Part shown: piece after piece, positions 20,513-35,707 of the stretch
How the letters are laid out: every line of letters begins with the position of its first letter
Numbering within the stretch: position 1 is the stretch's first letter
Source of the DNA: Enterococcus silesiacus
GTDB taxonomy: Bacteria; Bacillota; Bacilli; Lactobacillales; Enterococcaceae
DNA length: 64,000 bases
Assembly (NCBI GenBank): GCA_001465115.1
Contig: CP013614.1
Location: forward strand, 3,534,001-3,598,000
Direction of reading: 5' to 3'
Translations under genes and position numbers: made by a program
Notes under the pieces: model-generated
The model's input: only the letters and a program-made list of their open reading frames with translations
The model's database searches: none
What the model was told of the DNA's origin: nothing

Positions 20513-20854
20513 ATGATGCGAAGGGGAGAAATCTTTTATGCGAACCTCTCGCCTGTTGTTGGTTCAGAACAAGGAGGGATTAGGCCAGTATTGATTATTC
20601 AAAATAACAAGGGAAACTTATTTAGTCCAACGTTGATCGTTGCACCAATCACTAGAAATGTGAATAAAAAAATGCAGCCGACACAGGTCAAGGTGGATAT
20701 ACCTCATGACGATCGAATGACACCGTCGTTGGTATTACTGGAACAGATCCGAACACTGGATAAAGAACGAATTCTTCACAAAATTTGTCAGTTACATGAA
20801 GACGATATGGTGAAGGTCAATCAAGCACTGAAAATAAGTATTGGTATTCGTTAA
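20513..20854 (+). CDS. MazF/PemK-type endoribonuclease toxin (orphan copy 1)
   Basis: A 113-residue PemK/MazF-fold protein. Family motifs are RRGEIFYANLSPVVGSEQGG, GIRPVLIIQNN with the active-site Arg, APIT with the catalytic Thr region, and LLEQIRTLDKERI. The PTH motif seen in the Bacillus NdoA type is PTQ here. Activity would be sequence-specific mRNA cleavage. There is no antitoxin gene on either side, and the gene has its own promoter region. ATG 20513 follows AGAGGTG; a second ATG is adjacent. It is clearly paralogous to the copy at 43149. Confidence 0.88.
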   Translation: MMRRGEIFYANLSPVVGSEQGGIRPVLIIQNNKGNLFSPTLIVAPITRNVNKKMQPTQVKVDIPHDDRMTPSLVLLEQIRTLDKERILHKICQLHEDDMVKVNQALKISIGIR

Positions 20855-22189: not shown

Positions 22190-22392
22190 TCATGCGACGA
22201 GTTGACTTAATCAGACAGCTTAGGCTGTTCCGTTTTGACGGCTAGTGATTAACTAAACAACAGAGGCACATATGTTAAATCATACCTACCGGATGTAGGC
22301 GTGTCGGATAAATATTTTTGTGGAGAAGATGTTATCTATTTATTTTTATAAATACTGTGGCAAAAAAGAAGACTTCGGTCTTCTTTTTTGCT
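22190..22392 (+). ncRNA. Candidate small structured RNA
   Basis: About 200 nt between a good promoter and a strong hairpin terminator. TTAATC (around 22210) can pair with GATTAA (around 22248), enclosing hairpins ACAGC/GCTGT and CCGT/ACGG; CCTACCGGATGTAGG forms another stem. The end is GAAGAC-TTCG-GTCTTC with T-rich arms (22360-22391). A 17-codon frame starts at ATG 22191 but lacks a ribosome site. I do not recognise it as a known RNA class. Confidence 0.35.
22360..22391. terminator. Hairpin terminator with TTCG loop
   Basis: GCAAAAAAGAAGAC and GTCTTCTTTTTTGC flank a TTCG tetraloop; the A/T arms make it bidirectional. Confidence 0.8.
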
Positions 22393-22680
22393 GTGAAACA
22401 CTATGAACGAGGAACGAAGAGAATAGATGTTGAACAGTACAAGGTGAAGCGAAGCGGAACGTTGTCACCAGTGTTCCGAAACACTATGAATGTGGAACGA
22501 AGAGACGAAGAGAGTAGATGCATTCTCGCCAAGTGCTCGTCGCAGGAAAACAATGTTGAACAGTACAAGGTGAAGCGAAGCGGAACGTTGTCACCAATGT
22601 TTCGAAACACAAGGAACGAGGAACAAAGAGACGAAGCGAATAGATGCATTCTCGCTCAAGCGCTTATCTTGGGGAAATGT
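22393..22680 (+). repeat. 126-bp tandem direct repeat, two copies plus a partial
   Basis: The unit begins GTTGAACAGTACAAGGTGAA at 22429 and again at 22555, a period of exactly 126 bp. The first about 70 bp are nearly identical; the rest shares GAACGA..AGAGACGAAG and TAGATGCATTCTCGC. A partial preceding copy (AAACACTATGAACGAGGAACGAAGAG) lies at 22396-22428. Both strands have open frames through it because the period is a multiple of three. No ribosome site; I treat it as non-coding. Confidence 0.75.
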
Positions 22681-22854
22681 TGTATTTTTTGCTATAAAAG
22701 CAGCTAGTGCAAAAACTATTCAATCATGGATAAATGTTGTTGCACTAAAAGAAACACCTCGAAAGCTAGTATTTCGCTATATATAGTCTGGGTGAAACAC
22801 TATAAAATAACGAATAAAGAAATTTAAATAGGCAAATAAAAATAGTATACTAAG

Positions 22855-22949: not shown

Positions 22950-24827
22950 ATGTCACTGCACTTATCAAAACGAGAAATAAAAATCTTGTTATTGCTTTTA
23001 GATTTAGAAGAAAGTGTTACTACAAAAGAATTGGCAGAAACGTTTCAAGTTAGTGTAAGAACGATCAAATATGATTTGGAGAATATTCGTGATTGGTTTA
23101 AAGAACAGAACGTTTTGCTGCAAACACGCCGCAATAAAGGCATTTGGTTGGAACTACCTGATTCAGAACGATTAACCTTAAAAAATGAAATTATCGAGGT
23201 GGAACGCTTTGAAACCTATCCTGATCAGGAGTTGCGAGTAAATCAATTGATTTTTCGTTTGTTGTTGGCATCTAATTATTTAACTTCTCAAGAGTTGGCA
23301 GATGAAATCCAAGTGAGCAGAAATACGATCGTCAGTGATTTAGATCGTGTACAAGAGCTGATTCAGGCATATGGTCTTGTACTGAATAGACAAAGCCGGC
23401 AAGGGTTTTCAATCATAGGGGAAGAAAGTAAGATTCGCTTATTGATGGAATATATCACGCAAAAAGAAATAACAGAGTATGACATTTATCAAATTATGAG
23501 CTATTTTGTTCAATCTGGTCAGCAGAAAAAAATGCAGGAAGTTCATGTTGGCGTCAATACAATCTTTCAAAAAATTTATCAGGTTGCGCTAAAAGAAATG
23601 ACTAGCCTGTTAGATCCGTCCTTGTTTGACCAATTTAATTACGCAGAAATTTTGTCGATCACCTTACGAGTTGCAATCGCAACTGCTAGAATGCAGCTCC
23701 ACCATACTGTTGGCGGCTATAAAATGTTGACGAATCAAAATGTATTGCGGCAAAAACAAGAATTACCGTTTCTATTAATGAAAAAAGTTTTCGATCATTA
23801 TGAGTTGCCGCTTTTAGCTGATGAGTATTTCTATATTTATAGTGATGTGTTTGTAGCTAATAATCAACAGGACATTGTTGGTTTGACTGAAGAGCTGATC
23901 AAGGATGTATCAGAAGAAATCAAGTTTCCTTTTTACCGTGATCGACAATTGTTTACAAATCTTTTCGCTCATTTGTCTTTGCGTTTAACAAAGAAACACC
24001 TTTTTATAAATGAGTATAATCCGTTTGTAGATGACATCAAAGCCAAGTATCCACAATTATTTTCGGCCATCCAATTTGCTAGTCAAAGCGACATTGTTGG
24101 TTCGGCATTGTTGATCAACGATTCATTTATTGCCTATATTGCGCTGCACTTTTTAGTTGCTTATGAAAAAAATCAGCATGAAGTAAACGTAGTGCGGATC
24201 GTTTATGTATGTTCAACAGGTTTAGGTGTAACCAGTTTGATCGAACAAAAAATTCTGGAAGAAGTCGCTAATGTTGAGATTGCAGGATTTGCTTCTGTCT
24301 TGAATGCAGTGGATACAATAGAAGAAAAAAATCCGGATCTGGTCTTAAGTATTTTTCCAATCGAAATCATAAATCGTCCGTTCATAAAAGTGAATCCACT
24401 GCCAACGGAAGCGGATATCCATAGCATCCAAGAAGAAGTCAATAAAATTTTGACACATACGAAAACGGGTAAGGTTCCACGATTGATCCCTCGTCAGCCG
24501 ATCAAAGAAAAACAAGGCATTGAAGCAGAAAGCCGGGACATTATCGTCCGGACATATGTGATTTATGAAGAATTACTGAAAGCATTTGCTGAAAAATTGA
24601 CGCAAGAATACAAAGAAGCCTTTTTGCTTCATGTGATGCTGATGGTTCATCGAATCACGTTTGATAGTCAATATGAGAATGAGGGAAATATTGTTAAAGA
24701 AACCTTGTTGGCACAGCAAGAATTAGTGGAGCAAATTGAACGGATTTTTGCTAAAAATGATTTAATGGTTAATCAAGCAGAAATTACTGCTTTATTGAAT
24801 TATATAAGAGAGGAGGGGCACGTATGA
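22950..24827 (+). CDS. BglG/MtlR-type PTS-regulated transcriptional regulator
   Basis: A 625-residue multidomain regulator. N-terminal HTH (about 1-65, TTKELAETFQVSVRTIKYDL), second Mga-type HTH (80-150, TSQELADEIQVSRNTIVSDL), and two PRD domains (about 190-400). An EIIB-like domain has its phosphorylatable Cys in VYVCSTGLGVTS (about 420), and a C-terminal PRD-like segment runs to about 620 (LLHVMLMVHR). Phosphorylation by the PTS would set its activity. It overlaps the next gene by 4 bp, so it heads and very probably controls the sugar-catabolic operon that follows. Confidence 0.9.
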   Translation: MSLHLSKREIKILLLLLDLEESVTTKELAETFQVSVRTIKYDLENIRDWFKEQNVLLQTRRNKGIWLELPDSERLTLKNEIIEVERFETYPDQELRVNQLIFRLLLASNYLTSQELADEIQVSRNTIVSDLDRVQELIQAYGLVLNRQSRQGFSIIGEESKIRLLMEYITQKEITEYDIYQIMSYFVQSGQQKKMQEVHVGVNTIFQKIYQVALKEMTSLLDPSLFDQFNYAEILSITLRVAIATARMQLHHTVGGYKMLTNQNVLRQKQELPFLLMKKVFDHYELPLLADEYFYIYSDVFVANNQQDIVGLTEELIKDVSEEIKFPFYRDRQLFTNLFAHLSLRLTKKHLFINEYNPFVDDIKAKYPQLFSAIQFASQSDIVGSALLINDSFIAYIALHFLVAYEKNQHEVNVVRIVYVCSTGLGVTSLIEQKILEEVANVEIAGFASVLNAVDTIEEKNPDLVLSIFPIEIINRPFIKVNPLPTEADIHSIQEEVNKILTHTKTGKVPRLIPRQPIKEKQGIEAESRDIIVRTYVIYEELLKAFAEKLTQEYKEAFLLHVMLMVHRITFDSQYENEGNIVKETLLAQQELVEQIERIFAKNDLMVNQAEITALLNYIREEGHV

Positions 24828-25162
24828 TGTTAAATGACGATGCTCAAAAAATCATTGATGAAAGTCCGAATAAGGTTGAGTTGGAAGCATCACTGGAAAA
24901 AATCAGAACCTTGTTACTAAAACAGGCGATTCAACCGACTGAGTTGCAATGGACGATTTTGATCAATCATGTTAATGAAATGATCAAACGCTCGATTGCT
25001 GGAGAAAAAATGTCCGGCGTTGATCCTGTAATGTTTGAAGAAGTGTCTAAAGAAGCCTTAGCAATTGCAGATCAAGTGGTTCAACATATCGGTAATCTGC
25101 CGCAAGATGAAATGTACGTATTATCGATTCATTTTGAAGCAGCTAGACAAAACGAAGGATAA
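24824..25162 (+). CDS. Stand-alone PRD-domain protein
   Basis: A 112-residue single PRD-like domain. The two His landmarks fit the PRD pattern: ILINHVNEMIKR and YVLSIHFEAAR. There is no DNA- or RNA-binding part. Its ATG overlaps the stop of the large regulator (ATGA), so they are made together. It could titrate or relay phosphorylation to the regulator; that is inference. A 59-bp gap with AAATTGGAGGAATTAGG leads to the next gene. Confidence 0.75.
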   Translation: MMLNDDAQKIIDESPNKVELEASLEKIRTLLLKQAIQPTELQWTILINHVNEMIKRSIAGEKMSGVDPVMFEEVSKEALAIADQVVQHIGNLPQDEMYVLSIHFEAARQNEG

Positions 25163-25221
25163 GAGAGAAAAATTGAAGTCTGCATGAGCGGCTTTCAAAT
25201 AAAAAAATTGGAGGAATTAGG

Positions 25222-25575
25222 ATGATAACAGTAGTAATCGCAGATCGTTTAGGTAAAGGGCAAAATGTAGCCAAAGGAGTGGAAGCCGCTGGCGGTAAAG
25301 CCGTTGTTGTACCAGGAATGGGCGCTGATATGCGTTTAGGAGATGTGATGCAGCAAGAAAATGCCGATTTAGGTATTTCATTTTGCGGAAGCGGCGGGGC
25401 TGGCGCTTTAACAGCTGCTACAAAATATGGCTATCCAGAACGCCATGGTATGCGCTCAATCGATGAAGGTGTGACGGCTATCAATGACGGCAAAACAGTT
25501 TTAGGGTTTGGGTTTATGGACCAAGAAGAATTAGGGAAACGTATAGTAGAAGCGTATCTGAAAAAGATTGGCTAA
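25222..25575 (+). CDS. SFCGS family glycine-rich protein
   Basis: A 117-residue cytoplasmic protein bearing the signature ISFCGSGGAGALTAATKYG (about residues 52-70) after a small Rossmann-like half (VVIADRLGKGQNVAKGVEAA). The family is named for this motif and has no established function. The pattern of a short beta-alpha unit, a Cys-Gly-Ser/Thr-Gly loop and then ..AxxKYG loosely recalls the RpiB/LacAB sugar-phosphate isomerase loop (CGTGxG...ANK); this is pattern-level only. First of four consecutive genes always seen here as a block with DUF4312, DUF4311 and DUF4310 products. Confidence 0.8.
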   Translation: MITVVIADRLGKGQNVAKGVEAAGGKAVVVPGMGADMRLGDVMQQENADLGISFCGSGGAGALTAATKYGYPERHGMRSIDEGVTAINDGKTVLGFGFMDQEELGKRIVEAYLKKIG

Positions 25576-25602
25576 GCATTAAAGCTGGAGGGGGAAAACC
25601 AA

Positions 25603-25977
25603 ATGGAAAAAGTAACAATTAAAAAGCGTCAGGTCATTCAGGTTGAAGGAACAGGAAAAGAAAAAAATTTAGCTTTCGCCAATGCTCTGAATCAAATCCA
25701 TAATCGTGTATTAAAGGAAAAAGATGATGTGATCGTTCGAATTGAACCTGTGGATATTCAAATTGTAAGAGCAGAACAAGAAACATTTACAGAACACTTT
25801 CTATTTTTCTTTTTACCTCGCACGCGTGCGGATTATCGCGTACTGCTGGATGTTGAAGTTGAGATCACACTGATTGAGATGGAAACGGTCTCTTTTGTAG
25901 AAAAAAAGGTTGCTGATCCAAATGGTCTTCCGATCCCTTTCGGAAAGAACAAAAGAATGCATAAGGAGGCAAATTAA
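25603..25977 (+). CDS. DUF4312 family protein
   Basis: A 124-residue soluble alpha/beta protein with no signal peptide. The N-terminal half (VIQVEGTGKEKNLAFANALNQI) is followed by a basic segment LPRTRADYRVLLDVEVEITL and a hydrophilic tail. Recognised as DUF4312 from its sequence style and its place in the SFCGS-DUF4312-DUF4311-DUF4310 set. Function unknown. ATG 25603 follows GGAGGGGGAAAACC. The next gene begins directly after the stop codon. Confidence 0.75.
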   Translation: MEKVTIKKRQVIQVEGTGKEKNLAFANALNQIHNRVLKEKDDVIVRIEPVDIQIVRAEQETFTEHFLFFFLPRTRADYRVLLDVEVEITLIEMETVSFVEKKVADPNGLPIPFGKNKRMHKEAN

Positions 25978-26760
25978 ATGGATGTTTTAGTCGTTTTACT
26001 CAAGTCATTACTGATTGGGGGATTGGTTGGATTTGCAGCAGGAGCAGGAGCTGCAAGAATGTTTCATGCACCAAGTACGCAAGGCTTAGGTGCTTTTAGA
26101 ACATTAGGAGAAATGAATGCATGTGAAGGAGATGCGGCTAGTCATTTTTCATTTGGCTTAGGTTTTTTCTTTAACGCTTGGGCTTCAACCGTTGGAGCTG
26201 GGGCATTTACGCAGGATGTGGATCACCGCGTTATTCCTAACTGGGCTGCTGCAGCTTTATTAGTAAAAAATAAAAATGTCGCTGAAACAATGCATAATCC
26301 TAAGAAAATGGGTATTTCAGGTGCAGTTGTGGGGATGTTGGTTGTGGCTTTCTTGAATACAACGGCATCCGCAATTCCGGAGTCTTTACAAGTGACAGCA
26401 ATTGCTGTTTTAGTACCTGCAGCGAACCTTTTGATCAACACAGTAATGCCAGTTTTATTCTGGCTAGCAGCAATTGATGCTGGAAAACGTTCTGGTCTTT
26501 GGGCAACAATATTTGGAGGTCTTGCAACAATGATTATGGGCAATGCCGTTCCTGGTGTGGTTTTAGGTATTTTAATTGGTAAAGGAGTCGATGAAATCGG
26601 CTGGAATAAAGTAACGAAAAGTATGATGGCAGCAGTTATTCTATTATTTGTATTGAGTGCCTTTTTCCGTGGTTTTGATTTGCAAATGATCGAAAGCTTC
26701 CGTTTACAAATTCCTGGATGGCTAGAAAACATGCATGATGTCTTCAGCATCGGTAAATAA
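25978..26760 (+). CDS. DUF4311 family membrane protein
   Basis: A 260-residue Gly/Ala-rich integral membrane protein with about six to seven hydrophobic segments. Notable is a polar, conserved-looking insert after the first segment: ARMFHAPSTQGLGAFRTLG, then EMNACEGDAASHFSFGLG, then FTQDVDHRVIPNW. Short helices separated by small residues suggest a transport or channel fold. Its start abuts the DUF4312 stop, with AAGGAGG inside the end of that gene. No assigned function; probably forms one membrane unit with the DUF4310 protein. Confidence 0.75.
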   Translation: MDVLVVLLKSLLIGGLVGFAAGAGAARMFHAPSTQGLGAFRTLGEMNACEGDAASHFSFGLGFFFNAWASTVGAGAFTQDVDHRVIPNWAAAALLVKNKNVAETMHNPKKMGISGAVVGMLVVAFLNTTASAIPESLQVTAIAVLVPAANLLINTVMPVLFWLAAIDAGKRSGLWATIFGGLATMIMGNAVPGVVLGILIGKGVDEIGWNKVTKSMMAAVILLFVLSAFFRGFDLQMIESFRLQIPGWLENMHDVFSIGK

Positions 26761-26785
26761 TTAAAAAGAAAGAGAGGGAATCATA

Positions 26786-27451
26786 ATGGAAGAAACATTG
26801 GAATTAGAAGGAAGAAAGAATTTTTGGTTTGCTGATTGGTCATTTCCGATTTTAGTTGGATTGTTGTCAGCAGGTGTTTTTGCTGGAACGCATATGTATT
26901 TTGTTTATGGTGTTGGAGCGTTTAATGAGGTAGCGATTGTTGCAATGTTAAAAGCTGGAATGGACGGCGGTTCATATGGTGCGGCGGCGGCATTTGGGGC
27001 TAGTTTCTTATTTGCTCGTATTTTGGAAGGCTCACTGGTTGGGATTTTAGATATCGGTGGTGCAATTTTAACAGGGGTTGGTATTGGGGTTCCGGCAATT
27101 CTTTTGAGTATGGGAATTGAAGCACCACTTACAAACTTTAGCCTTTCATTGTTAACTGGCATGCTTCTTGGTGTAGTCATCGGTGGGATTATTGTAATGA
27201 TTCGTAAATTTACCATCAATCAGTCAAATTCCACATTTGGTGCAGATGTCATGATGGGAGCAGGAAATGCTTCAGGACGCTTTTTAGGTCCGTTGATCAT
27301 TATCAGTGCATGTGGAGCCTCTGCACCCATCGGAATTGGCTCAGTGATCGGTGCCGTGATTTTCTATGTGTGGAAAAAACCGATAGCGGGTGGCGCAATT
27401 TTAGGCGCAATGATTTTTGGTGCAATATTCCCAGTAGATTTACCTAGTTAA
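26786..27451 (+). CDS. DUF4310 family membrane protein
   Basis: A 221-residue Gly-rich membrane protein with about five to six hydrophobic segments after a short charged N-terminus. It has alternating Gly-Ala motifs (DGGSYGAAAAFGASFLFA, GAGNASGRFLGPLIIISACG, AILGAMIFGAIFPVD). Its composition and segment pattern resemble the DUF4311 partner, so the two may be halves of a heteromeric transporter; that is inference. ATG 26786 follows AGAGAGGGAATC. It is followed by an internal promoter and the EIIC gene. Confidence 0.75.
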   Translation: MEETLELEGRKNFWFADWSFPILVGLLSAGVFAGTHMYFVYGVGAFNEVAIVAMLKAGMDGGSYGAAAAFGASFLFARILEGSLVGILDIGGAILTGVGIGVPAILLSMGIEAPLTNFSLSLLTGMLLGVVIGGIIVMIRKFTINQSNSTFGADVMMGAGNASGRFLGPLIIISACGASAPIGIGSVIGAVIFYVWKKPIAGGAILGAMIFGAIFPVDLPS

Positions 27452-27477
27452 AACCGATCCTAATTGCACTTTTCTTT

Positions 27478-27515
27478 TGAAAACCGTTTACATTATAATG
27501 TTACCATGTTATTAT
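27478..27515 (+). promoter_or_regulatory. Internal promoter with overlapping cre-like site
   Basis: TTTACA (27487-27492), a 17-bp spacer and TATTAT (27510-27515) with a TG just upstream. TGAAAACCGTTTACA (27478-27492) overlaps the -35; it resembles a CcpA cre site but has one extra base between the half-sites, so the operator call is weak. Confidence 0.45.
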
Positions 27516-27574
27516 GAATGAGAAATAATTTGATTTTTTATTTATACTAATTTTTTGAATGGAGGACAAAAGAA

Positions 27575-28894
27575 ATGAATGGTTTTGTGCAGTGGATGGA
27601 AGTAAAATTGATGCCGATTGCCAATAAGTTTGGCTCTCAAAGACATATGACAGCGATTAGAAAGGGTCTTATCGCAACGATGCCGTTGACAATTGTTGGT
27701 GCCTTTTTCACGGTATTTCAGAATATCCCGATTGATGCTTATATGAAATTTATTGAACCTTATCAAGCAGTTTTGGATATTCCATCTCGTTATACGATGG
27801 GGATTTTAGCTTTATATGCAACCTTTGGAATTGCTTCTTCTTTAGCAACGAGTTACAAGCTGGATTCTTTAACATGTGGGATTTTAGCTGTTATGGCCTT
27901 TTTAGTCACAGCAGCACCACCTACAAGAGTTTTTGAAGATGTGAAGGATGTCATTGGGACAGGACGTTATATCAATTTAGCGAATATTGGTTCAGCGTCA
28001 TTATTTGGTGCGATCGTGACAGCGCTTGTTTCTGTTGAAATTTACCGCTTCTTTATTCAAAAAAATATTACGATAAAAATGCCTGATGGTGTCCCACCTG
28101 AAGTGTCTAATTCATTTATCGCGTTGATTCCTGGCGCTGTGATTTTATTACTATTCTGGGTGATTCGTCACGTTATTGGTTTTGATTTAAATGGTTTCTT
28201 GAGTACATTATTAATGCCGTTGAAAGATACTTTGGCTGGAAACAGCTTATTTGGCGGGTTGCTTACAGTCTTCTTAATTTGTTTCTTCTGGGTCTTAGGG
28301 ATTCATGGACCAGCGATTATGGGTCCTGTCATCAGACCATTTTGGGATATGTCGATTGCTGAAAATACACTTGCTTTCCAAGAAGGCGCATCTGTTCATA
28401 ATTTGCCGAATATCTTTACAGAACAATTTTTACAATGGTTTATCTGGATCGGCGGTGCTGGTACTACTTTAGCGTTAGTCGTTTTAATGATGTTTTCTAA
28501 ATCAACTTACCTGAAAAGCTTAGGACGTTTGTCTTTCTTACCAGGATTATTCAATATTAATGAACCTGTGATTTTTGGTACACCGATCGTGATGAACCCG
28601 ATTTTGGGTATTCCGTTTATCGTAGCACCATTGATCACAACAACATTTTCTTACTTTTTAACGGTCACAAATGTAATTCCAATGATGGCGGCACGCTTAC
28701 CATTTGCCATACCTGCGCCAGTCGCTGCGTGGATGAGTACCAACTGGAGTGTTCCGGCAGCTCTGCTTGTCTGTGTCAATTTCGCGATTACTTTAGCGAT
28801 CTACTACCCGTTCTTCAAAGTATATGAAAAACAACAGTTAGACAAAGAAGCTGAAGAGTTAGCAGCTGAACAAAAAGCAAAAGCAGTTGCTTAA
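27575..28894 (+). CDS. PTS EIIC permease, lactose/cellobiose family
   Basis: A 439-residue EIIC with about ten membrane segments. Typical family regions are GLIATMPLTIVGAFFTVFQN, the FGIHGPAIMGP-like loop (ILGIHGPAIMGPVIRPFWD) and the GLFNINEPVIFGTPIVMNP signature near the sugar site. It imports and, with EIIA/EIIB, phosphorylates a sugar. No EIIA or EIIB genes lie in the operon, so these must come from elsewhere. ATG 27575 follows TGGAGGAC. The C-terminal tail is Ala/Glu/Lys-rich. Confidence 0.9.
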   Translation: MNGFVQWMEVKLMPIANKFGSQRHMTAIRKGLIATMPLTIVGAFFTVFQNIPIDAYMKFIEPYQAVLDIPSRYTMGILALYATFGIASSLATSYKLDSLTCGILAVMAFLVTAAPPTRVFEDVKDVIGTGRYINLANIGSASLFGAIVTALVSVEIYRFFIQKNITIKMPDGVPPEVSNSFIALIPGAVILLLFWVIRHVIGFDLNGFLSTLLMPLKDTLAGNSLFGGLLTVFLICFFWVLGIHGPAIMGPVIRPFWDMSIAENTLAFQEGASVHNLPNIFTEQFLQWFIWIGGAGTTLALVVLMMFSKSTYLKSLGRLSFLPGLFNINEPVIFGTPIVMNPILGIPFIVAPLITTTFSYFLTVTNVIPMMAARLPFAIPAPVAAWMSTNWSVPAALLVCVNFAITLAIYYPFFKVYEKQQLDKEAEELAAEQKAKAVA

Positions 28895-28917
28895 TTAAGT
28901 AGAGAGGAAGAGAGGAG

Positions 28918-28988
28918 AGGATGGGACAAAACCAAAAACAGTTTTGAACCATCCTTTAAATACTGATAAACGCTTCTGTACCAACCTC
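28918..28988. repeat. Intergenic hairpin element after the EIIC gene
   Basis: GGATGGGACAAAAC pairs with GTTTTGAACCATCC (28918-28957). A CGCTTCTGTACCAACCTC segment follows and partly pairs with the preceding GAGAGGAG. Related to the element 3' of rplY. Confidence 0.5.
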
Positions 28989-29006
28989 TCTTTGGTGATT
29001 AAGGTT

Positions 29007-29258
29007 ATGTTGATTTGGTTCATAGTATTTTTTATTCTTAGTCAAGTAATGATTGAAAGAAAATGGCTGCCTACAAAGTTTACAGATTTAAGATTGTTGC
29101 ATCTATGTATTGCTTCGATTGGTTTGATTTTCTTATCGATCGTAATTGGTATTTTAGTTCAACAACCTCTATTTGTAGTAGGAACGGTCACTATTTTTTG
29201 CAGTTCAGTTATCTCCTGGAGATATAGAAATAAATTCGACCATATAAAGCGAGGGTAA
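29007..29258 (+). CDS. Small hypothetical membrane protein
   Basis: An 83-residue protein with three hydrophobic segments (about 2-16, 29-48 and 51-68) and a basic C-terminus (WRYRNKFDHIKRG). Not recognised. It is inside the sugar operon and ends 5 bp before the DUF871 gene. The start is uncertain: ATG 29007 is chosen because the upstream part of the frame lies in a repeat element; GTG 28995 is possible. The ribosome site is poor. Confidence 0.5.
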   Translation: MLIWFIVFFILSQVMIERKWLPTKFTDLRLLHLCIASIGLIFLSIVIGILVQQPLFVVGTVTIFCSSVISWRYRNKFDHIKRG

Positions 29259-29263
29259 AAGTG

Positions 29264-30352
29264 ATGAAAAGAGCATTAGGTGTATCTGTTTATCCAGATC
29301 ATAGTGATATAGAAAAAGATAAAGCTTATTTAAAGAAAGCCAGTGAATGTGGATTTTCACGGATCTTTATGAGTATGCTAGAAGTAACAGAAGGCAAAGA
29401 AGTGGTCAAAGAACGGTTCAAATCACTAATCTCGTATGCAAAAAGTTTAGGCTATGAAACGATTTTAGATGTGGCACCAAATATTTTTGATGAATTACAA
29501 ATTTCATATGATGATTTAACGTTCTTTTATGAAACGGGTGCAGATGGCATTCGTTTAGATGTAGGGTTTGACGGAAATAAAGAAGCAAAGCTGACCTTTA
29601 ATCCGTTTGAATTGGCGATTGAACTAAACATGAGCAATGATGTGGCGTATTTGGATAATATCTTAACCTATGAGGCCAATGTTCCATTTCTTTATGGTTG
29701 TCATAATTTCTACCCACAAGAGGGAACGGCGTTGCCGTATGATTTTTTTGAACGTTGTAGCGTTCGTTTTAAAAAGCATGGGATTCGGACAGCGGCATTT
29801 ATTAACTCTCAGGCAGGAACGATTGGACCTTGGGATGTCAATGATGGATTGCCGACGTTAGAAATGCATCGACATTTACCAGTGGATATCCAGACAAAAC
29901 ATTTATTTGCGACAGGTTTGATCGATGATGTGATCATTGGCAATGCGTATGCTTCAGATGAGGAACTAGAATTATTAGGTAGTTTAAATCGTTATCAACT
30001 AGAATTTGCTGTGGAATTTACAAAAGATGCCAGTAAAGTTGAAAAGGAAATTACGTTGACTGAACAACACTTCCGTCGTGGTGATATCACAGATCAAGTG
30101 GTTCGTTCAACAGAAGTTCGTAAAAAATACAAAAATGAAGCGAATCCAGCACATGAGAATACGCAAGAATTCCAAGTAGGTGATGTTGTGATTGGCAATG
30201 ATTCATTTGGAAAATACAAAAATGAACTGCAAATTGTTTTACAGCCACATTCAGATGACCGTAAAAATAAAGTGGGGCAAATAACAGAGAAAGAATTGTT
30301 GTTGTTGGATTTTGTAAAACCCTGGACTAAATTTAGATTTAAAGAAAAGTAG
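29264..30352 (+). CDS. DUF871/MupG family TIM-barrel protein (phosphoglycosidase-like)
   Basis: A 362-residue protein. The N-terminal TIM barrel (about 1-240) begins KRALGVSVYPDHSD and includes GADGIRLDVGF and YGCHNFYPQEGTALPYDFF. A small C-terminal beta domain follows (VGDVVIGNDSFGKYKNELQIV). The family includes MupG of Staphylococcus aureus, a 6-phospho-N-acetylmuramidase that cleaves a PTS-imported phosphodisaccharide. Placed after an EIIC and before a deacetylase-like amidohydrolase, it probably hydrolyses the phosphorylated sugar. ATG 29264 lies 8 nt after GAGGG; a GTG at 29261 is less well placed. Confidence 0.82.
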   Translation: MKRALGVSVYPDHSDIEKDKAYLKKASECGFSRIFMSMLEVTEGKEVVKERFKSLISYAKSLGYETILDVAPNIFDELQISYDDLTFFYETGADGIRLDVGFDGNKEAKLTFNPFELAIELNMSNDVAYLDNILTYEANVPFLYGCHNFYPQEGTALPYDFFERCSVRFKKHGIRTAAFINSQAGTIGPWDVNDGLPTLEMHRHLPVDIQTKHLFATGLIDDVIIGNAYASDEELELLGSLNRYQLEFAVEFTKDASKVEKEITLTEQHFRRGDITDQVVRSTEVRKKYKNEANPAHENTQEFQVGDVVIGNDSFGKYKNELQIVLQPHSDDRKNKVGQITEKELLLLDFVKPWTKFRFKEK

Positions 30353-30360
30353 GGGATAAG

Positions 30361-31470
30361 ATGAGTTACGACTTAATCATAAAAAATGGCAAAACCATTG
30401 AAGGTAAACCAATAGAAATAGCGATCAATGCTGGAAAAATAGCAAAAGTTGCAGATAAAATCGAAGCGGACAGTAAAGAGGTTGTTGAACTAGCTGAAGG
30501 GACTTATGTATCGGCAGGTTGGATCGATGATCACGTTCATTGTTTTGAAAAAATGACCTTATACTACGATTTTCCCGATGAAATTGGTGTCAAAAAAGGC
30601 GTAACAACAGTAATTGATGCAGGTACGACTGGCGCTGAAAACATCCACGAATTTTACGACCTAGCAAAACAAGCACAAACGAATGTCTATGCGTTAGTGA
30701 ATATTTCAAAATGGGGGATTGTTGAACAGGATGAATTGGCGGATCTTAGCAAGGTGAAAGAAGAATTAGTTCATCAAGCGTTGTCTGAACTGCCGGATTT
30801 TGTCGTAGGAATCAAAGCCCGTATGAGTAAAACCGTGATCGGCGACAATGGGATCACGCCATTGGAAATGGCTAAAAAGATTCAAAAAAACAACAATGAT
30901 CTTCCGCTAATGGTGCATATTGGCTCAGCACCACCAAAATTAGATGAAATTTTGGCGCATATGTCAAAAGGGGATATTTTAACACATTGTTTCAATGGGA
31001 AAGCGAACGGAATCTTAAATCAAGAAACTGACCAAATCAAAGATTTTGCCTGGAAAGCATATGAGAAAGGTGTTATTTTTGATATAGGTCATGGGACAGA
31101 TAGTTTTAATTTTCATGTAGCTGAAACAGCCTTAAATGAAGGCATGAAAGCCACTTCGATCAGTACGGATATCTATATTCGAAACCGTGAAGCGGGTCCA
31201 GTTTATGATCTAGCGACGACCATGGAAAAACTGCGTGTCGTAGGTTATGGGTGGCCTGAAATTATCGAAAAAGTTACTATAGCTCCAGCTGAAAGTTTCC
31301 ATTTTGATACTAAAGGGCGCTTGAAAGAAGGTTACGATGGCGATATTACGATTTTTACGATCGAAGCAGGCAAAAAAACGTTAACTGATTCAAACGGATT
31401 TACAAGGGAAGCGACAGAATTGATCAAACCTGTAAAGACCATTATTGGAGGAATAGTTTATGACAATTAG
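30361..31470 (+). CDS. Amidohydrolase/deacetylase family metallohydrolase
   Basis: A 369-residue amidohydrolase-superfamily enzyme, related to proteins variously labelled dihydroorotase or adenine deaminase. Metal ligands visible: HVH in WIDDHVHCF (about 57-62), a candidate carboxylated Lys in VGIKARMS, His in LMVHIGS and ILTHCFNG, and a catalytic Asp in SISTDIYIR. In this operon it most likely removes an acyl or amide group from an amino-sugar-derived intermediate before the PLP lyase acts. It overlaps the next gene by 11 bp. ATG 30361 follows TAGGGGAT. Confidence 0.85.
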   Translation: MSYDLIIKNGKTIEGKPIEIAINAGKIAKVADKIEADSKEVVELAEGTYVSAGWIDDHVHCFEKMTLYYDFPDEIGVKKGVTTVIDAGTTGAENIHEFYDLAKQAQTNVYALVNISKWGIVEQDELADLSKVKEELVHQALSELPDFVVGIKARMSKTVIGDNGITPLEMAKKIQKNNNDLPLMVHIGSAPPKLDEILAHMSKGDILTHCFNGKANGILNQETDQIKDFAWKAYEKGVIFDIGHGTDSFNFHVAETALNEGMKATSISTDIYIRNREAGPVYDLATTMEKLRVVGYGWPEIIEKVTIAPAESFHFDTKGRLKEGYDGDITIFTIEAGKKTLTDSNGFTREATELIKPVKTIIGGIVYDN

Positions 31471-32554
31471 TTATGAAAAATTCAACTTAAAAGAAGTGAT
31501 CAATGCTTCGGGACGGATGACCATTTTAGGCGTCTCTAAAGTGTCAGAGAATGTTTTAGCCGCTCAAAAATTTGGCGGTGAACATTTCTTTGAGATGAGT
31601 GAACTAAGTATTCAAACGGGTGCTTATTTAGCCAAACTATTACATGTTGAAGATGCCCAAGTCGTCTCTTCTGCATCTGCCGGAATTGCCCAAAGCGTAG
31701 CTGCTTTGATTGGCGAAGGGTCGGTGTATCATGCCTATCATCCGTATACAGATAAGATTAACAAACGTGAAATCATTTTACCCAAAGGACATAATGTAGA
31801 TTATGGCACACCAGTTGAAGTAATGGTGGAACAAGGTGGCGGTCATGTTGTAGAAGCAGGCTATGCGAATATGTGCTCTCCAGAACATATCGAAATGATG
31901 ATCACAGACCAAACCGCAGCCATACTTTATATCAAGAGTCACCATACTGTTCAAAAAAGTATGTTAACTGTAGCAGAAGCAGCAGCAGTAGCAAAAGCGC
32001 ACAACTTACCACTGATCGTTGATGCTGCAGCGGAGGAAGACTTATTCAAGTATAGCGAAGCAGGCGCTGATCTAGTTATCTACAGTGGTGCAAAAGCTAT
32101 TGAAGGCCCAAGTGCTGGACTTGTGATTGGTCAAAAAGAATATATTGAATGGATTCGCCTACAAGGTAAAGGAATTGGGCGTGCGATGAAGATCGGCAAA
32201 GATAATATTCTAGGATTTACACAAGCAGTCGAAGATTACGTGAAAAATGGCAGTGAATCAGGAGAGTCGATGCAGGCACGTCTGTCACCGTTTATCGATG
32301 AGCTGAATAAAATCAAAAACATTGAAGCTAAAGTCGTTCAAGATGGTGCAGGCAGAGAGATATATCGTGCTAGCATCAAAGTTAGCGGCGCTAAATCGGC
32401 TAAAGAGGTTATCAAAGAATTAAGCGTAGAAAGTCCTGCGATTTACACCAGAGAATACCAAGCCAACAATGGTATTATCGAATTTGATATTCGTTCCGTG
32501 AATGAAACAGAAATGAAAAAAATCGTGACGCGTTTAACTACGATCATGAACTAA
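31460..32554 (+). CDS. dgaE: DgaE-type PLP-dependent ammonia-lyase (SelA-like fold)
   Basis: A 364-residue fold-type I PLP enzyme of the SelA-like group. It opens with EVINASGRMTILGVSKVSENV; the PLP Lys is expected in VIYSGAKAIEGPSAG (about 215). The group includes DgaE of Salmonella, which converts D-glucosaminate 6-phosphate to 2-keto-3-deoxygluconate 6-phosphate and ammonia. The adjacent DgaF-type aldolase supports the same reaction type here. It is coupled to the amidohydrolase by overlap. Confidence 0.85.
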   Translation: MTISYEKFNLKEVINASGRMTILGVSKVSENVLAAQKFGGEHFFEMSELSIQTGAYLAKLLHVEDAQVVSSASAGIAQSVAALIGEGSVYHAYHPYTDKINKREIILPKGHNVDYGTPVEVMVEQGGGHVVEAGYANMCSPEHIEMMITDQTAAILYIKSHHTVQKSMLTVAEAAAVAKAHNLPLIVDAAAEEDLFKYSEAGADLVIYSGAKAIEGPSAGLVIGQKEYIEWIRLQGKGIGRAMKIGKDNILGFTQAVEDYVKNGSESGESMQARLSPFIDELNKIKNIEAKVVQDGAGREIYRASIKVSGAKSAKEVIKELSVESPAIYTREYQANNGIIEFDIRSVNETEMKKIVTRLTTIMN

Positions 32555-32580
32555 CTAAAAATGTAGAGGAGCAATCAATT

Positions 32581-33324
32581 ATGTCATTAACACCAAACTA
32601 TTTAGAAGATCGTATTTGCCTAAATGTCCTAGCTAACTCAGTAGAAAATGCTAAAGAATGTTACGAAGCAGCTGAAGGACACATCGTTTTAGGTGTATTA
32701 TCTAAAAATTATCCAACAGATGAAGCGGCAATCGAGGATATGAAAAAATATGCTGCAGCAACGAACAATGCGTTATCGGTTGGTTTAGGTGCAGGAGATC
32801 CTAACCAAAGCCAAATGGTTTCAAGAATTTCAAAAGACTTACAACCGCAACATGTGAATCAAGTCTTTACAGGCGTTGGTACATCACGTGCGTTACTAGG
32901 ACAAAACGAAACGATAGTTAACGGTTTGGTCTCACCAACAGGCAAAGTCGGCATCGTGAATATCGCAACAGGTCCATTAAGCTCACAAACACCAGCAGGT
33001 GAAGTAACAATTGAAACGGCGATTCGTTTATTGCAAGATATGGGTGGTAGTTCAATCAAATTTTTCCCAATGAAAGGCTTAGCTCATATTGAAGAATACA
33101 AGGCTGTCGCAAGAGCATGTGCTAAATATGATTTTTATTTAGAACCAACTGGCGGGATCGATTTAGAAAACTTTGAAGAAATCGTTCAAATCGCTGTGGA
33201 TGCAGGTGTTAAAAAAATTATTCCTCATGTTTACAGTTCAATCATCGATTCAGAAACAGGCGATACAAGACCAGCTGATGTAAAAACATTACTTGGTATG
33301 ATGAAAAATACATTGAAAAAATAA
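32581..33324 (+). CDS. dgaF: KDGP aldolase family protein (DgaF type)
   Basis: A 247-residue class-I-type TIM-barrel aldolase of the DgaF group. Likely active-site elements are KFFPMKGLAHIEEY, with a Schiff-base Lys in SIKFFPMKG, and YLEPTGGIDLENF. It would split 2-keto-3-deoxy-6-phosphogluconate into pyruvate and glyceraldehyde 3-phosphate. ATG 32581 follows GTAGAGGAGCAATC. It is the last gene of the operon before a terminator. Confidence 0.87.
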   Translation: MSLTPNYLEDRICLNVLANSVENAKECYEAAEGHIVLGVLSKNYPTDEAAIEDMKKYAAATNNALSVGLGAGDPNQSQMVSRISKDLQPQHVNQVFTGVGTSRALLGQNETIVNGLVSPTGKVGIVNIATGPLSSQTPAGEVTIETAIRLLQDMGGSSIKFFPMKGLAHIEEYKAVARACAKYDFYLEPTGGIDLENFEEIVQIAVDAGVKKIIPHVYSSIIDSETGDTRPADVKTLLGMMKNTLKK

Positions 33325-33363
33325 AAGCTGAACAAACTCACTCAGGGCTGACAGAAAAATAGG

Positions 33364-33412
33364 AAACCTTGACTGTGGCGTATTGTGCCACAATAAAGGT
33401 TTATCTTTTTTC
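33364..33412 (+). terminator. Terminator of the amino-sugar operon
   Basis: AAACCTTGACTGTGGC pairs with GCCACAATAAAGGTTT, followed by ATCTTTTTT. Confidence 0.85.
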
Positions 33413-33488
33413 CGAAGACCTAGTTTGTAAAGCTAGACAAAATAAAAGCAGAACGAGCTCGTGAAGCTAGAAATAGGCAGGGATCATG

Positions 33489-34499
33489 ATGAAAATTGCA
33501 GCTTTTGGTGAAATAATGATGCGTTTGACGCCACCGGAATATCTGATGTTGGAACAAACCAAGGAATTACGGTTAGACTTTACTGGTACCGGCGTAAATA
33601 TTTTAAGTAATTTAGCCCATTTTGGTTGTCAAACAAGTTTGATCACGAACGTACCAAATAATCGATTAGGTGAGGCGGCTAAAGCGAGCGTTCGGCAGCT
33701 GGGAATTCAAGATCATTGGATTGGAACAGCTGGTGATCACATCGGTTCTTATTTCGCTGAAATGGGTTTTGGACCAAGGCCGACACAAGTGACGTACCAA
33801 AATCGCCGGAATAGTTCATTTGGTGTGAGCGGGGCTGCTAGCTATGATTTTGATGCATTTTTAGCTGAAACTGATTTAGTGCACATCTGCGGGATAGCAT
33901 TGAGCCTGACTCAAGAAACACGAGATGCGGCGCTTACTTTAGCGAAAAAGGCACATACTTTAGGAAAAAAAGTTTGCTTTGACTTTAATTTTCGTCCTAG
34001 TTTAAATGAAGTACATGGTGTTTCATTTATGAAAGAACAGTATGAAAAAATGCTACCGTATTGCGATTTAGTTTTTGGCAGTCAACGCGATTTAACGGAT
34101 CTGTTAGGGATGTCGCTTGATGAGTCGTTGGATTCTTCTAAACAATTTGAAGAATTAGTGCATCGCTTTATGAAACAATACCAGATCGAAGCATTTGCCG
34201 GAACGATTCGTCAAGGTGAAGCAGACAAACATTATTTGACGGGTTTTCTCTTTGATAGGGAAAACAACGTACAAGCAGCGCCGCGGGAGATTATTAATTT
34301 AGATAGAATCGGTGCAGGAGATGGTTATGCCGCTGGGGTACTGCTTGGCTACAGTGAAGCTTGGTCGTTGTTGGAGACGGTCGAATTTGCTACAGCCAAC
34401 GGTGTTTTAGCGCATACGATTCAAGGAGATGTGCCGCTTACAACGCGCAAGCAAGTCAGACATATCATGGAACAGCCGACCGTTGATTTAATTCGTTAA
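33489..34499 (+). CDS. PfkB-family sugar kinase (2-keto-3-deoxygluconate kinase-like)
   Basis: A 336-residue ribokinase/PfkB-family kinase. The N-terminus is KIAAFGEIMMRLTPPE; the C-terminal ATP/anion-hole signature is DRIGAGDGYAAGVLLGY with the catalytic Asp. It resembles KDG kinases, which would feed 2-keto-3-deoxygluconate to the KDGP aldolase just upstream. It lies past the operon terminator, so it may be separately or read-through transcribed. ATG 33489 is used; ATG 33486 is adjacent and equally possible. Confidence 0.85.
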   Translation: MKIAAFGEIMMRLTPPEYLMLEQTKELRLDFTGTGVNILSNLAHFGCQTSLITNVPNNRLGEAAKASVRQLGIQDHWIGTAGDHIGSYFAEMGFGPRPTQVTYQNRRNSSFGVSGAASYDFDAFLAETDLVHICGIALSLTQETRDAALTLAKKAHTLGKKVCFDFNFRPSLNEVHGVSFMKEQYEKMLPYCDLVFGSQRDLTDLLGMSLDESLDSSKQFEELVHRFMKQYQIEAFAGTIRQGEADKHYLTGFLFDRENNVQAAPREIINLDRIGAGDGYAAGVLLGYSEAWSLLETVEFATANGVLAHTIQGDVPLTTRKQVRHIMEQPTVDLIR

Positions 34500-34696: not shown

Positions 34697-35707
34697 GTGA
34701 CCGATGAAAATATTTGGAAAGCACTAGATGATGATGTTTTGAAAGATAGTATTCGAAAACGACCAGGTATGTACATTGGTGGGATTGGTCCGACTGGCTT
34801 AGAAAGTATGCTATTGCAAGTGCTGGATCATTTACTGCAATTAGCAGTCGATCTAAAGCAGGCAGAACTGTCGATTGAATTATCAGAGAAACAATTTATT
34901 TTTTCCTTTTTCAGCCAAAAGGGGTTTCTCTTAGATAAAAGCCCAGAAGAACAGTACACACCGCCTTATCTGTTTCTTTCTGTCGTTAATGCCTTATCAG
35001 AACAGTTGGGTTTTGGTGTAGAAAAGTTAGGTAAGCGGACCATCCAGATCTATCAGAACGGTCAGCTAAACAAAAAAGCATTGATTCCTTCAGAAGATGA
35101 AGGGCAAAGAATCGAATTGGCCTTTACACCTGATGAAACATTATTCGGCAATAAGCCATTATCATACTTTATTTTATTTAACCGTTGTCAGGAATTAGCA
35201 CTGTTGAACAGCGGTTTGACGATTTCATTGACGGATGGGAAAAAACAGAAAAATTATTTGCACTACGAGCAAGGATTGGTTGATTATATTTTTCAAAAAG
35301 ATGATAGCATCACACGAAACGGTCAGCCATTGATCATCAACACAGTCAGTGAAGGGGTGACGATTCAAGCTGTTATTTCCAAAAATGGTTCTACTAGCAT
35401 CAAAGACAGTTTTGTCAATGGACACTTGCCAGCTGATGGTGGGACACATCTTGATGGATTTATTCAAGGAACAGTCGATGCGATCAATCAGTTTTTAGAG
35501 GAAACAAACCGACTAAAATATCTAACGACCGATAATTTTTCTGAACGTTTTGATGTTGTTCTGTCGATCAAAGTCAAACGACCAAGGTACACTGGCGCTG
35601 TCAAAAAGAAAATCAGAAATCCTGAGCTGTATAAAATCGTGAAAGAAGCTGTGTTTACAGATGTGTCGATCTTTTTAAAACGACATCCAGCTTGGTATTT
35701 AAGTTAA
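34697..35707 (+). CDS. Degenerate GyrB/ParE N-terminal-like protein
   Basis: A 336-residue protein matching only the 43-kDa ATPase/transducer part of GyrB/ParE. Landmarks are IRKRPGMYIGG (19-29), SVVNALSEQLG, GGTHLDGFIQGTVDAINQF and GAVKKKIRNPEL, which aligns with the QTKTKLGN loop of the transducer domain. Catalytic features are missing: the Glu and Asn of the EVVDN motif are Gln41 and His45 (QVLDH), the DGRG motif is absent, and the GVGxS lid motif is replaced by YLFLS. There is no TOPRIM domain. It cannot be a working gyrase subunit and probably does not hydrolyse ATP. GTG 34697 follows AGGAGGAG. Confidence 0.8.
   Translation: MTDENIWKALDDDVLKDSIRKRPGMYIGGIGPTGLESMLLQVLDHLLQLAVDLKQAELSIELSEKQFIFSFFSQKGFLLDKSPEEQYTPPYLFLSVVNALSEQLGFGVEKLGKRTIQIYQNGQLNKKALIPSEDEGQRIELAFTPDETLFGNKPLSYFILFNRCQELALLNSGLTISLTDGKKQKNYLHYEQGLVDYIFQKDDSITRNGQPLIINTVSEGVTIQAVISKNGSTSIKDSFVNGHLPADGGTHLDGFIQGTVDAINQFLEETNRLKYLTTDNFSERFDVVLSIKVKRPRYTGAVKKKIRNPELYKIVKEAVFTDVSIFLKRHPAWYLS

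Follow-up and report, generated by a model that had tools for sequence, protein, structure and literature searches.

Gene organisation of the cluster

We analysed a window of 64,000 nucleotides from Enterococcus silesiacus (contig CP013614.1), in which 13 genes, all on the forward strand, span positions 22950-34499, with a PRD-containing regulator first and a PfkB-family kinase last. Comparison with related loci shows that the cluster consists of two import arms feeding one enzyme trio, the amidohydrolase AMID, the lyase DgaE and the aldolase DgaF; both the separability of the arms and the sharing of the trio were computed from these loci. The first arm is a unit of five genes, hereafter called the module, which we propose to be a phosphorylating importer of an amino-sugar acid. 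A first-pass annotation, made from the sequence alone, had already pointed to this region. The genes it named exist on this strand where it placed them and match the named families above cut-off, apart from one part of the regulator.

Families were assigned with Pfam and NCBIfam models at their own cut-offs. The regulator (REG, 22950-24827) is a MafR/EbpR-like transcriptional regulator with HTH_11/Mga and PRD domains. It had been described as a PRD/EIIB protein; the PRD part holds and the EIIB part does not, as residues 416-472 resemble this subunit of the phosphotransferase system (PTS) only below threshold (PTS_IIB 13.0 bits, cut-off 23.6). The regulator is followed by a small stand-alone PRD protein of 112 amino acids from the EF_0829 family (24824-25162, TIGR03582), and then by four proteins that each match their family above cut-off: SFCGS (25222-25575, PF14272/TIGR03577), the small protein DUF4312 (25603-25977, PF14189/TIGR03578), the polytopic helical membrane protein DUF4311 (25978-26760, PF14188/TIGR03580) and the glycine-rich membrane protein DUF4310 (26786-27451, PF14187/TIGR03579). 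Among the 120 matches listed, the closest relative of SFCGS is from E. moraviensis, with 98% identity.

The genes had been described as tightly spaced, but DUF4310 and the next gene are separated by 123 bp. This gap contains a promoter-like site on the forward strand (27487-27515, TTTACA-17-TATTAT, with TG before the -10), possibly the old 5' end of a second operon; the promoter scan as a whole gave 41 sites against 48.8 in shuffled sequence, and therefore no excess. Beyond the gap lie a PTS EIIC of the lactose/cellobiose/chitobiose type (27575-28894, TIGR00410 above cut-off), with no EIIA or EIIB gene adjoining, and TM104, a membrane open reading frame (ORF) of 104 amino acids (28944-29258) with no Pfam or NCBIfam family. 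TM104 sits between EIIC and MupG in several related clusters (for example L006, L125, L142, L143, L159 and L171). The MupG gene itself (29261-30352, GTG start, MupG_N and MupG_C above cut-off) encodes a TIM-barrel member of the GH170 family and predicted phosphoglycosidase.

The enzyme trio comes next. AMID (30361-31470), an EF_0837-type amidohydrolase/deacetylase, matches TIGR03583 above cut-off with 559 bits, its closest solved structure is 2ics (650 bits), and we propose it to be a putative deacylase. DgaE (31460-32554) belongs to a family of pyridoxal phosphate-dependent ammonia lyases (TIGR01437, 569 bits, above cut-off); its His-His pair aligns with His162/163 of the Salmonella enzyme and the motif SHH is found in 111 of 112 relatives. 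DgaF (32581-33324) is assigned as a 2-dehydro-3-deoxy-6-phosphogluconate aldolase (NF047796, 393.6 bits, cut-off 300; also TIGR03581). Judged by family, DgaE and DgaF together set the product of the pathway, with an amino-sugar acid being turned into 2-keto-3-deoxy-6-phosphogluconate (KDGP), and on the same basis there is support for the earlier view of a degradative cluster whose final reactions are deacylation, deamination and aldol cleavage. A terminator had been placed between DgaF and the kinase, and a terminator-like stem-loop with a T-run does lie there on the forward strand (33364-33411), read directly in the sequence and absent from the output of the terminator scan. The PfkB-family sugar kinase (33486-34499, above cut-off), which goes with the second arm, resembles 2-keto-3-deoxygluconate kinases yet falls below the cut-offs of the named models. 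Up to DgaF the cluster contains twelve genes instead of the ten counted before, the 112-residue PRD protein and TM104 having been overlooked. A scan of the window for CcpA sites gave three matches, which is the chance level.

Two separable import arms

For comparison we scored 103 loci, consisting of 80 of 236 relative-encoding loci from a genome-contig scan and 23 from other genome searches. SFCGS, DUF4311 and DUF4310 are all held by 102 of them, the exception being L116, a short contig. L095 stands outside this count and the kinase counts, and is consistent with them in having the module and the trio without PfkB; L100 was excluded as a copy of L004. Set A1 took in 33 of the 120 listed SFCGS matches and set A6 68 of the 91 DUF4311 matches.

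The small PRD protein is present in all 102 module loci, DUF4312 in 101 (it is missing from one relative only, L003) and a regulator match in 99; the regulators of the window, L024, L032 and L098 were scanned further, and all four have PRD domains. All five of the small PRD protein, SFCGS, DUF4312, DUF4311 and DUF4310 occur together in 101 of 102 loci, and the unit previously seen as four genes is thus one of five. The trio is nearly as constant, with AMID in 97 loci, DgaE in 97 and DgaF in 96, and two of the loci lacking enzymes, L025 and L068, are truncated at a contig end. The unknown families therefore do not lie mostly away from sugar genes, and the suggestion that they form a second transporter is strengthened. 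PfkB is found in only five of the loci and EIIC and MupG in three each, the latter two together in two. Only the five genes make up the transport-like unit; EIIC, MupG and PfkB are additions to it. Four uncut loci have the module without the enzymes (L004, L034, L035 and L081), and all four genomes have a KDGP aldolase at another place.

The second arm, EIIC, TM104, MupG and PfkB, forms its own operon with the trio elsewhere. Of the four genomes in which the module stands without the enzymes, those of Priestia and Vagococcus have, at the other place, an independent operon in the order EIIC-TM104-MupG-AMID-DgaE-DgaF-PfkB that is flanked on one side by a GntR-type regulator, and the two from Paenibacillus have an AMID-DgaE-DgaF-PfkB-GntR set there (the GntR of L143 was confirmed, the others were assigned by eye). 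In total 13 loci combine EIIC/MupG with the trio and have no module adjoining. Both arms meet on one trio in the window, L006 and L125.

The unit scores above cut-off in 6 of 299 genomes from the phylum to which the window belongs (SFCGS model), in 20 of 178 Lactobacillales genomes, in 2 of 291 genomes from the class of Hungatella and in 15 of 158 from the order of Pantoea. Within the Lactobacillales set the DgaF family is present in 20 of 20 genomes with DUF4311, compared with 29 of the 158 others. We found no relevant paper on the SFCGS, DUF4312, DUF4311 or DUF4310 families in the open literature, only indirect mentions. In E. faecalis dgaEF is described as duplicated (PMC7396535), and EF0839 was previously suggested to handle amino sugars (PMC7701990).

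Kinase genes suggest phosphorylation at uptake

We classed 122 DgaF loci by their adjoining transporter and scored PfkB within 4 kb of DgaF. Only the first DgaF match of each locus was used, and no match was obtained in 6 of 128 loci (L004, L025, L034, L035, L068 and L081). The set included 15 of the 29 Lactobacillales genomes with DgaF and without DUF4311, together with the unlinked DgaF loci of five module genomes. PfkB accompanies EIIC/MupG in 16 of 16 loci (three of these also with the module), the GntP symporter in 3 of 3 and MupG alone in the single case. Where no recognised transporter was present the kinase was found in two of four loci. In contrast it was absent from all three loci with a mannose-type PTS (the EIIA, B, C and D of L170 were confirmed), and was present in only 2 of 94 loci with the module and without MupG. 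Both exceptions, L042 and L077, have the enzymes and the kinase in an adjacent group, after which comes a GntR-like gene. L003, which has the module and MupG, has no PfkB, and L128 has a PfkB-like gene past its regulator and outside the 4 kb limit.

The mannose-type DgaABCD of Salmonella is reported to yield glucosaminate 6-phosphate (PMC9529869). The simplest reading is that PfkB is required beside importers that do not phosphorylate their substrate and beside a glycosidase releasing the acid in unphosphorylated form, and is dispensable for the mannose-type PTS and for the module, which in its kinase neighbours appears to behave like the phosphorylating mannose PTS. AMID is present in 94 of 94 module-only loci and in none of the three mannose-type PTS loci, a pattern consistent with the module taking up an N-acylated substrate.

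PTS genes beside the module

An HPr gene adjoins the module in 11 loci from three lineages, comprising 9 of 9 Paenibacillus loci, Hungatella (L023) and L098. Enzyme I is also present in seven of the eleven, and the phospho-histidine motif is kept in these HPr genes. Searching the eleven loci with 14 enzyme II query proteins gave no match. Seven loci from Enterobacterales (L032, L033, L036, L053, L114, L115 and L117) have NPr next to the module; this was taken as a shared chromosomal site and was not counted in favour. All 46 of the genome entries searched, each with the module or the yhf operon described below, contain enzyme I (the entries derive from 35 of the 80 contig loci and 11 genomes, G244 and G475 apparently being a single genome); as a PTS is present in most such genomes in any case, this was only a test that the idea could have failed. 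Together with the HPr genes it is circumstantial evidence for a link to the PTS.

Sequence and fold of the module proteins

The small PRD protein has His49 in 99 of 99 and His103 in 98 of 99 aligned relatives, which would suit a putative phosphocarrier with an EIIA-like role. A structure search with the predicted model of SFCGS returned an alpha/beta fold of the RpiB/LacAB type; the match to Pfam LacAB_rpiB is below cut-off (12.4 bits against 24.7), and SFCGS has nothing corresponding to the final 20 residues of RpiB. Cys55 is invariant (95/95) and lies in a C-G-[ST]-G loop that aligns with E. coli RpiB, making SFCGS a candidate for an EIIB-like role. A classical EIIB by fold was considered and rejected, no EIIB fold being among the matches listed.

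DUF4312 has no conserved histidine or cysteine among aligned relatives. The invariant residues are R41, E45, H56, D80 and R84 in DUF4311 and R78, E81 and D89 in DUF4310. No structure in the PDB matched the fold of DUF4311, so the question of whether structure would reveal a known class has a divided answer, positive for SFCGS and negative for DUF4311. A weak similarity between DUF4311 and DUF2232 (22 of 24 members, best E 7.6e-4) was taken as generic to membrane proteins.

A related operon in E. coli

SFCGS is distantly homologous to YhfU (DUF2620; hhalign E 3.9e-6) and the small PRD protein to YhfY (hhalign E 2.3e-10), each from a single comparison. Both partners are encoded in the E. coli yhfSTUVWXYZ operon, the products of which are annotated as uncharacterised or putative, and which also encodes a membrane protein, a phosphotriesterase-like hydrolase (Php) and the aminotransferase-like YhfS. 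The yhf loci differ from the module loci in having no DgaF in those seen. We rejected the idea that YhfT is a DUF4311-DUF4310 fusion, since neither hhalign nor hmmsearch gave any similarity; the DUF4311 model has a sub-cut-off match in the E. coli control genome, and YhfT itself scores about 0 bits. The source genome of the window has a yhf-type operon as well (L106, G000:C1:1413000-1432000), with homologues of yhfU, yhfT, php, yhfS, yhfZ, yhfY, yhfX and yhfW.

Candidate substrate

In the 178 Lactobacillales genomes the DgaF family is present in 31 of 36 with an AA10 lytic polysaccharide monooxygenase (LPMO) and in 18 of 142 others. Counted by genus the association is 8/8 against 10/44 (Fisher p 6e-5), in related genomes and with no control gene. 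Thirteen of the DgaF genomes have a divergent form only (250-266 bits), and the one such locus seen, L155, lacks DgaE and AMID; the LPMO count was therefore also made without these thirteen, giving 21/36 against 15/142. N-acetyl-D-glucosaminate (GlcNAc1A) is an LPMO product, and the co-occurrence makes it a good candidate for the substrate, not a finding. The family names, EF_0830/AHA_3911 and so on, point to the same cluster in the AHA genome, a prefix that we take to stand for Aeromonas hydrophila. LPMOs are reported for Aeromonas, with no clear OngB/OngC (PMC11653859). For the second arm, genetic data involve the GH170 protein ChbE in diacetylchitobiose use by L. paracasei (PMC12791066), so a chitobiose-like disaccharide ending in GlcNAc1A is a plausible substrate.

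Proposed mechanism and alternatives

We propose that the module is a PTS-driven phosphorylating importer of N-acylated D-glucosaminate, to which we give a probability of roughly 0.55. Of the new observations, the separability of the arms, the distribution of the kinase and the neighbouring PTS genes carry the most weight. Its substrate would most likely be GlcNAc1A, perhaps derived from oxidised chitin. Phosphate would pass from enzyme I and HPr to the substrate, perhaps by way of the histidines of the PRD protein and the cysteine of SFCGS, with DUF4311 and DUF4310 moving the substrate through the membrane during phosphorylation. AMID would then strip the acyl group, DgaE would remove ammonia to give KDGP, and DgaF would split this into pyruvate and glyceraldehyde 3-phosphate. 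The second arm may import a disaccharide with this sugar acid at its end, from which MupG would release the acid in unphosphorylated form; for that reason this arm would need the PfkB kinase.

The PTS enzymes II described so far are grouped into a small number of superfamilies. Tentatively, and with less than even confidence, we would go further and regard the module as an additional enzyme II superfamily without known domains, in which the PRD protein serves as the histidine phosphocarrier (EIIA), the RpiB-fold protein as a phosphocysteine protein (EIIB) and DUF4311/DUF4310 as a translocator of unseen fold; YhfY, YhfU and YhfT of the yhf operon may form a second branch.

A number of observations weigh against phosphorylating uptake of GlcNAc1A by the module. 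None of the five proteins matches an EIIA, EIIB or EIIC family in Pfam or NCBIfam, scans of individual members of DUF4311, DUF4310 and DUF4312 gave no such domain, and hhalign comparison of the module with E. coli srlA/E/B, manX/Y/Z and ulaA/B/C gave no match. Kinship with the glucitol, mannose and ascorbate PTS subunits was accordingly rejected, the targets being single E. coli sequences. Neighbouring enzyme I and HPr genes are absent from 91 of 102 loci, or NPr alone is present, and the seven yhf loci (L101-L106 and E. coli) contain neither gene. A natural ORF in L097 that joins PRD and SFCGS counts in favour of the proposal, but it has an internal start with a likely ribosome site, so it may give two proteins. 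The DgaF loci behind the kinase pattern are related, with 57 of the 94 module-only loci from Enterobacterales (the other 37 are from Bacillota, by our own count), and a kinase could lie elsewhere in the genome, the search having covered 4 kb around DgaF. DgaE scores 351 bits with the strict glucosaminate-6-phosphate ammonia lyase model, below its cut-off of 600. The link between the module and LPMOs is weak in Lactobacillales (13/20 module genomes against 23/158 others, genus p 0.011) and not significant in Enterobacterales (6/15 against 34/143, p 0.14), and no LPMO was matched in Vagococcus G244, a genome with both arms.

Part of this evidence would fit a different explanation, one we consider unlikely, in which DUF4311/DUF4310 form a secondary active sugar-acid transporter with SFCGS and DUF4312 as accessory proteins. 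Proteins with PRDs are classically regulated by HPr, so contact with the PTS could be confined to the two PRD-bearing proteins, the regulator and the small one, which enzyme I and HPr would then serve alone, and an unlinked kinase would phosphorylate the acid. The missing enzyme II similarity and the yhf loci without enzyme I or HPr are as this would predict. Yet PfkB adjoins the trio with GntP and with EIIC/MupG in every case and is missing from 92 of 94 module-only loci, and dedicated enzyme I and HPr genes beside the module exceed the needs of a regulator.

The fold of SFCGS, like that of RpiB and unlike that of EIIB, raises the further idea of a catalytic role, in which SFCGS could isomerise or epimerise the imported compound as an enzyme of the RpiB/LacAB type and DUF4311 and DUF4310 alone would be responsible for transport. 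We regard this as improbable: the conversion of glucosaminate to KDGP requires no isomerisation, the C-terminal residues of RpiB are without a counterpart, and YhfU stands beside another enzyme set and again near a small PRD protein and a membrane protein, a context that points to transport. The single linear pathway proposed in the first-pass annotation would take one conjugate through import, cleavage by MupG, deacylation, deamination and final splitting, and the four unknown proteins would act in it as a membrane enzyme. It would account for the genes lying together in the window, L006 and L125 but is very improbable, because the module and EIIC/MupG occur apart (99 of 102 module loci lack EIIC, and EIIC/MupG stand without an adjoining module in 13).

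If the module is indeed a new superfamily of PTS enzyme II, present in Enterobacterales as well as Bacillota, it would give four uncharacterised families a testable role and tie the yhf operon of E. coli, whose function is uncharacterised, to transport. It would also provide these two groups with a candidate route for oxidised chitin monomers; the accounts cited here (PMC9537276, PMC12017989) describe the uptake of such monomers in marine bacteria, where a sodium symporter is used.

Further DgaF loci and neighbouring features

Three module-bearing genomes (G424, G432 and G399) have DgaE and DgaF a second time, paired and accompanied by a mannose-type PTS (loci L169, L170 and L172), in sets that resemble the Salmonella dga operon; in L169 a sigma-54 activator with PRD and EIIA domains adjoins the pair. 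In L163 a DgaF-family aldolase lies beside DgaE with no recognised transporter, and in L155 the divergent DgaF lies with a php-like gene; these two aldolases possibly serve other substrates.

Upstream of the cluster, the window contains a PemK/MazF-like toxin gene (20513-20854) and an Rfam match to the Enterococcus small RNA Ref68 (Lacto-3; 22193-22328). These are followed by an ORF of 129 amino acids with an internal repeat (VEQYKVKRSGTLSP; 22318-22707) and an antisense ORF across the same repeat, which is probably repeated non-coding DNA. Downstream, positions 34697-35707 encode a GyrB-like protein of 336 amino acids, far shorter than full GyrB/ParE.

Comparison with known systems

SFCGS shares its fold and Cys-loop with the RpiB/LacAB isomerases and differs from them in being shorter, in lacking the C-terminal stretch and in lying beside membrane-protein genes in 102 of 102 loci. 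The second arm is similar to MurP/MupG of S. aureus and Chb of L. paracasei (PMC12791066), as described there, where PTS import of a disaccharide is followed by a GH170 protein. It differs in that the released sugar would enter the sugar-acid trio with PfkB and in having no EIIA or EIIB beside EIIC.

The marine ong pathway (PMC9537276, PMC12017989), as far as these accounts describe it, likewise proceeds by deacylation and deamination with KDG-6-P as the key intermediate, and has the same candidate substrate as the module, GlcNAc1A. It uses a sodium symporter and phosphorylates last, through KdgK, whereas here phosphorylation is proposed at uptake. The Salmonella dgaABCDEF system (PMC9529869, PMC3844500) has homologues of DgaE and DgaF and, in those descriptions, takes up its substrate with phosphorylation, as we propose for the module. 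Salmonella uses a mannose-type PTS for this step; in the E. silesiacus cluster its place would be taken by five proteins of unknown families, accompanied by the putative deacylase AMID.

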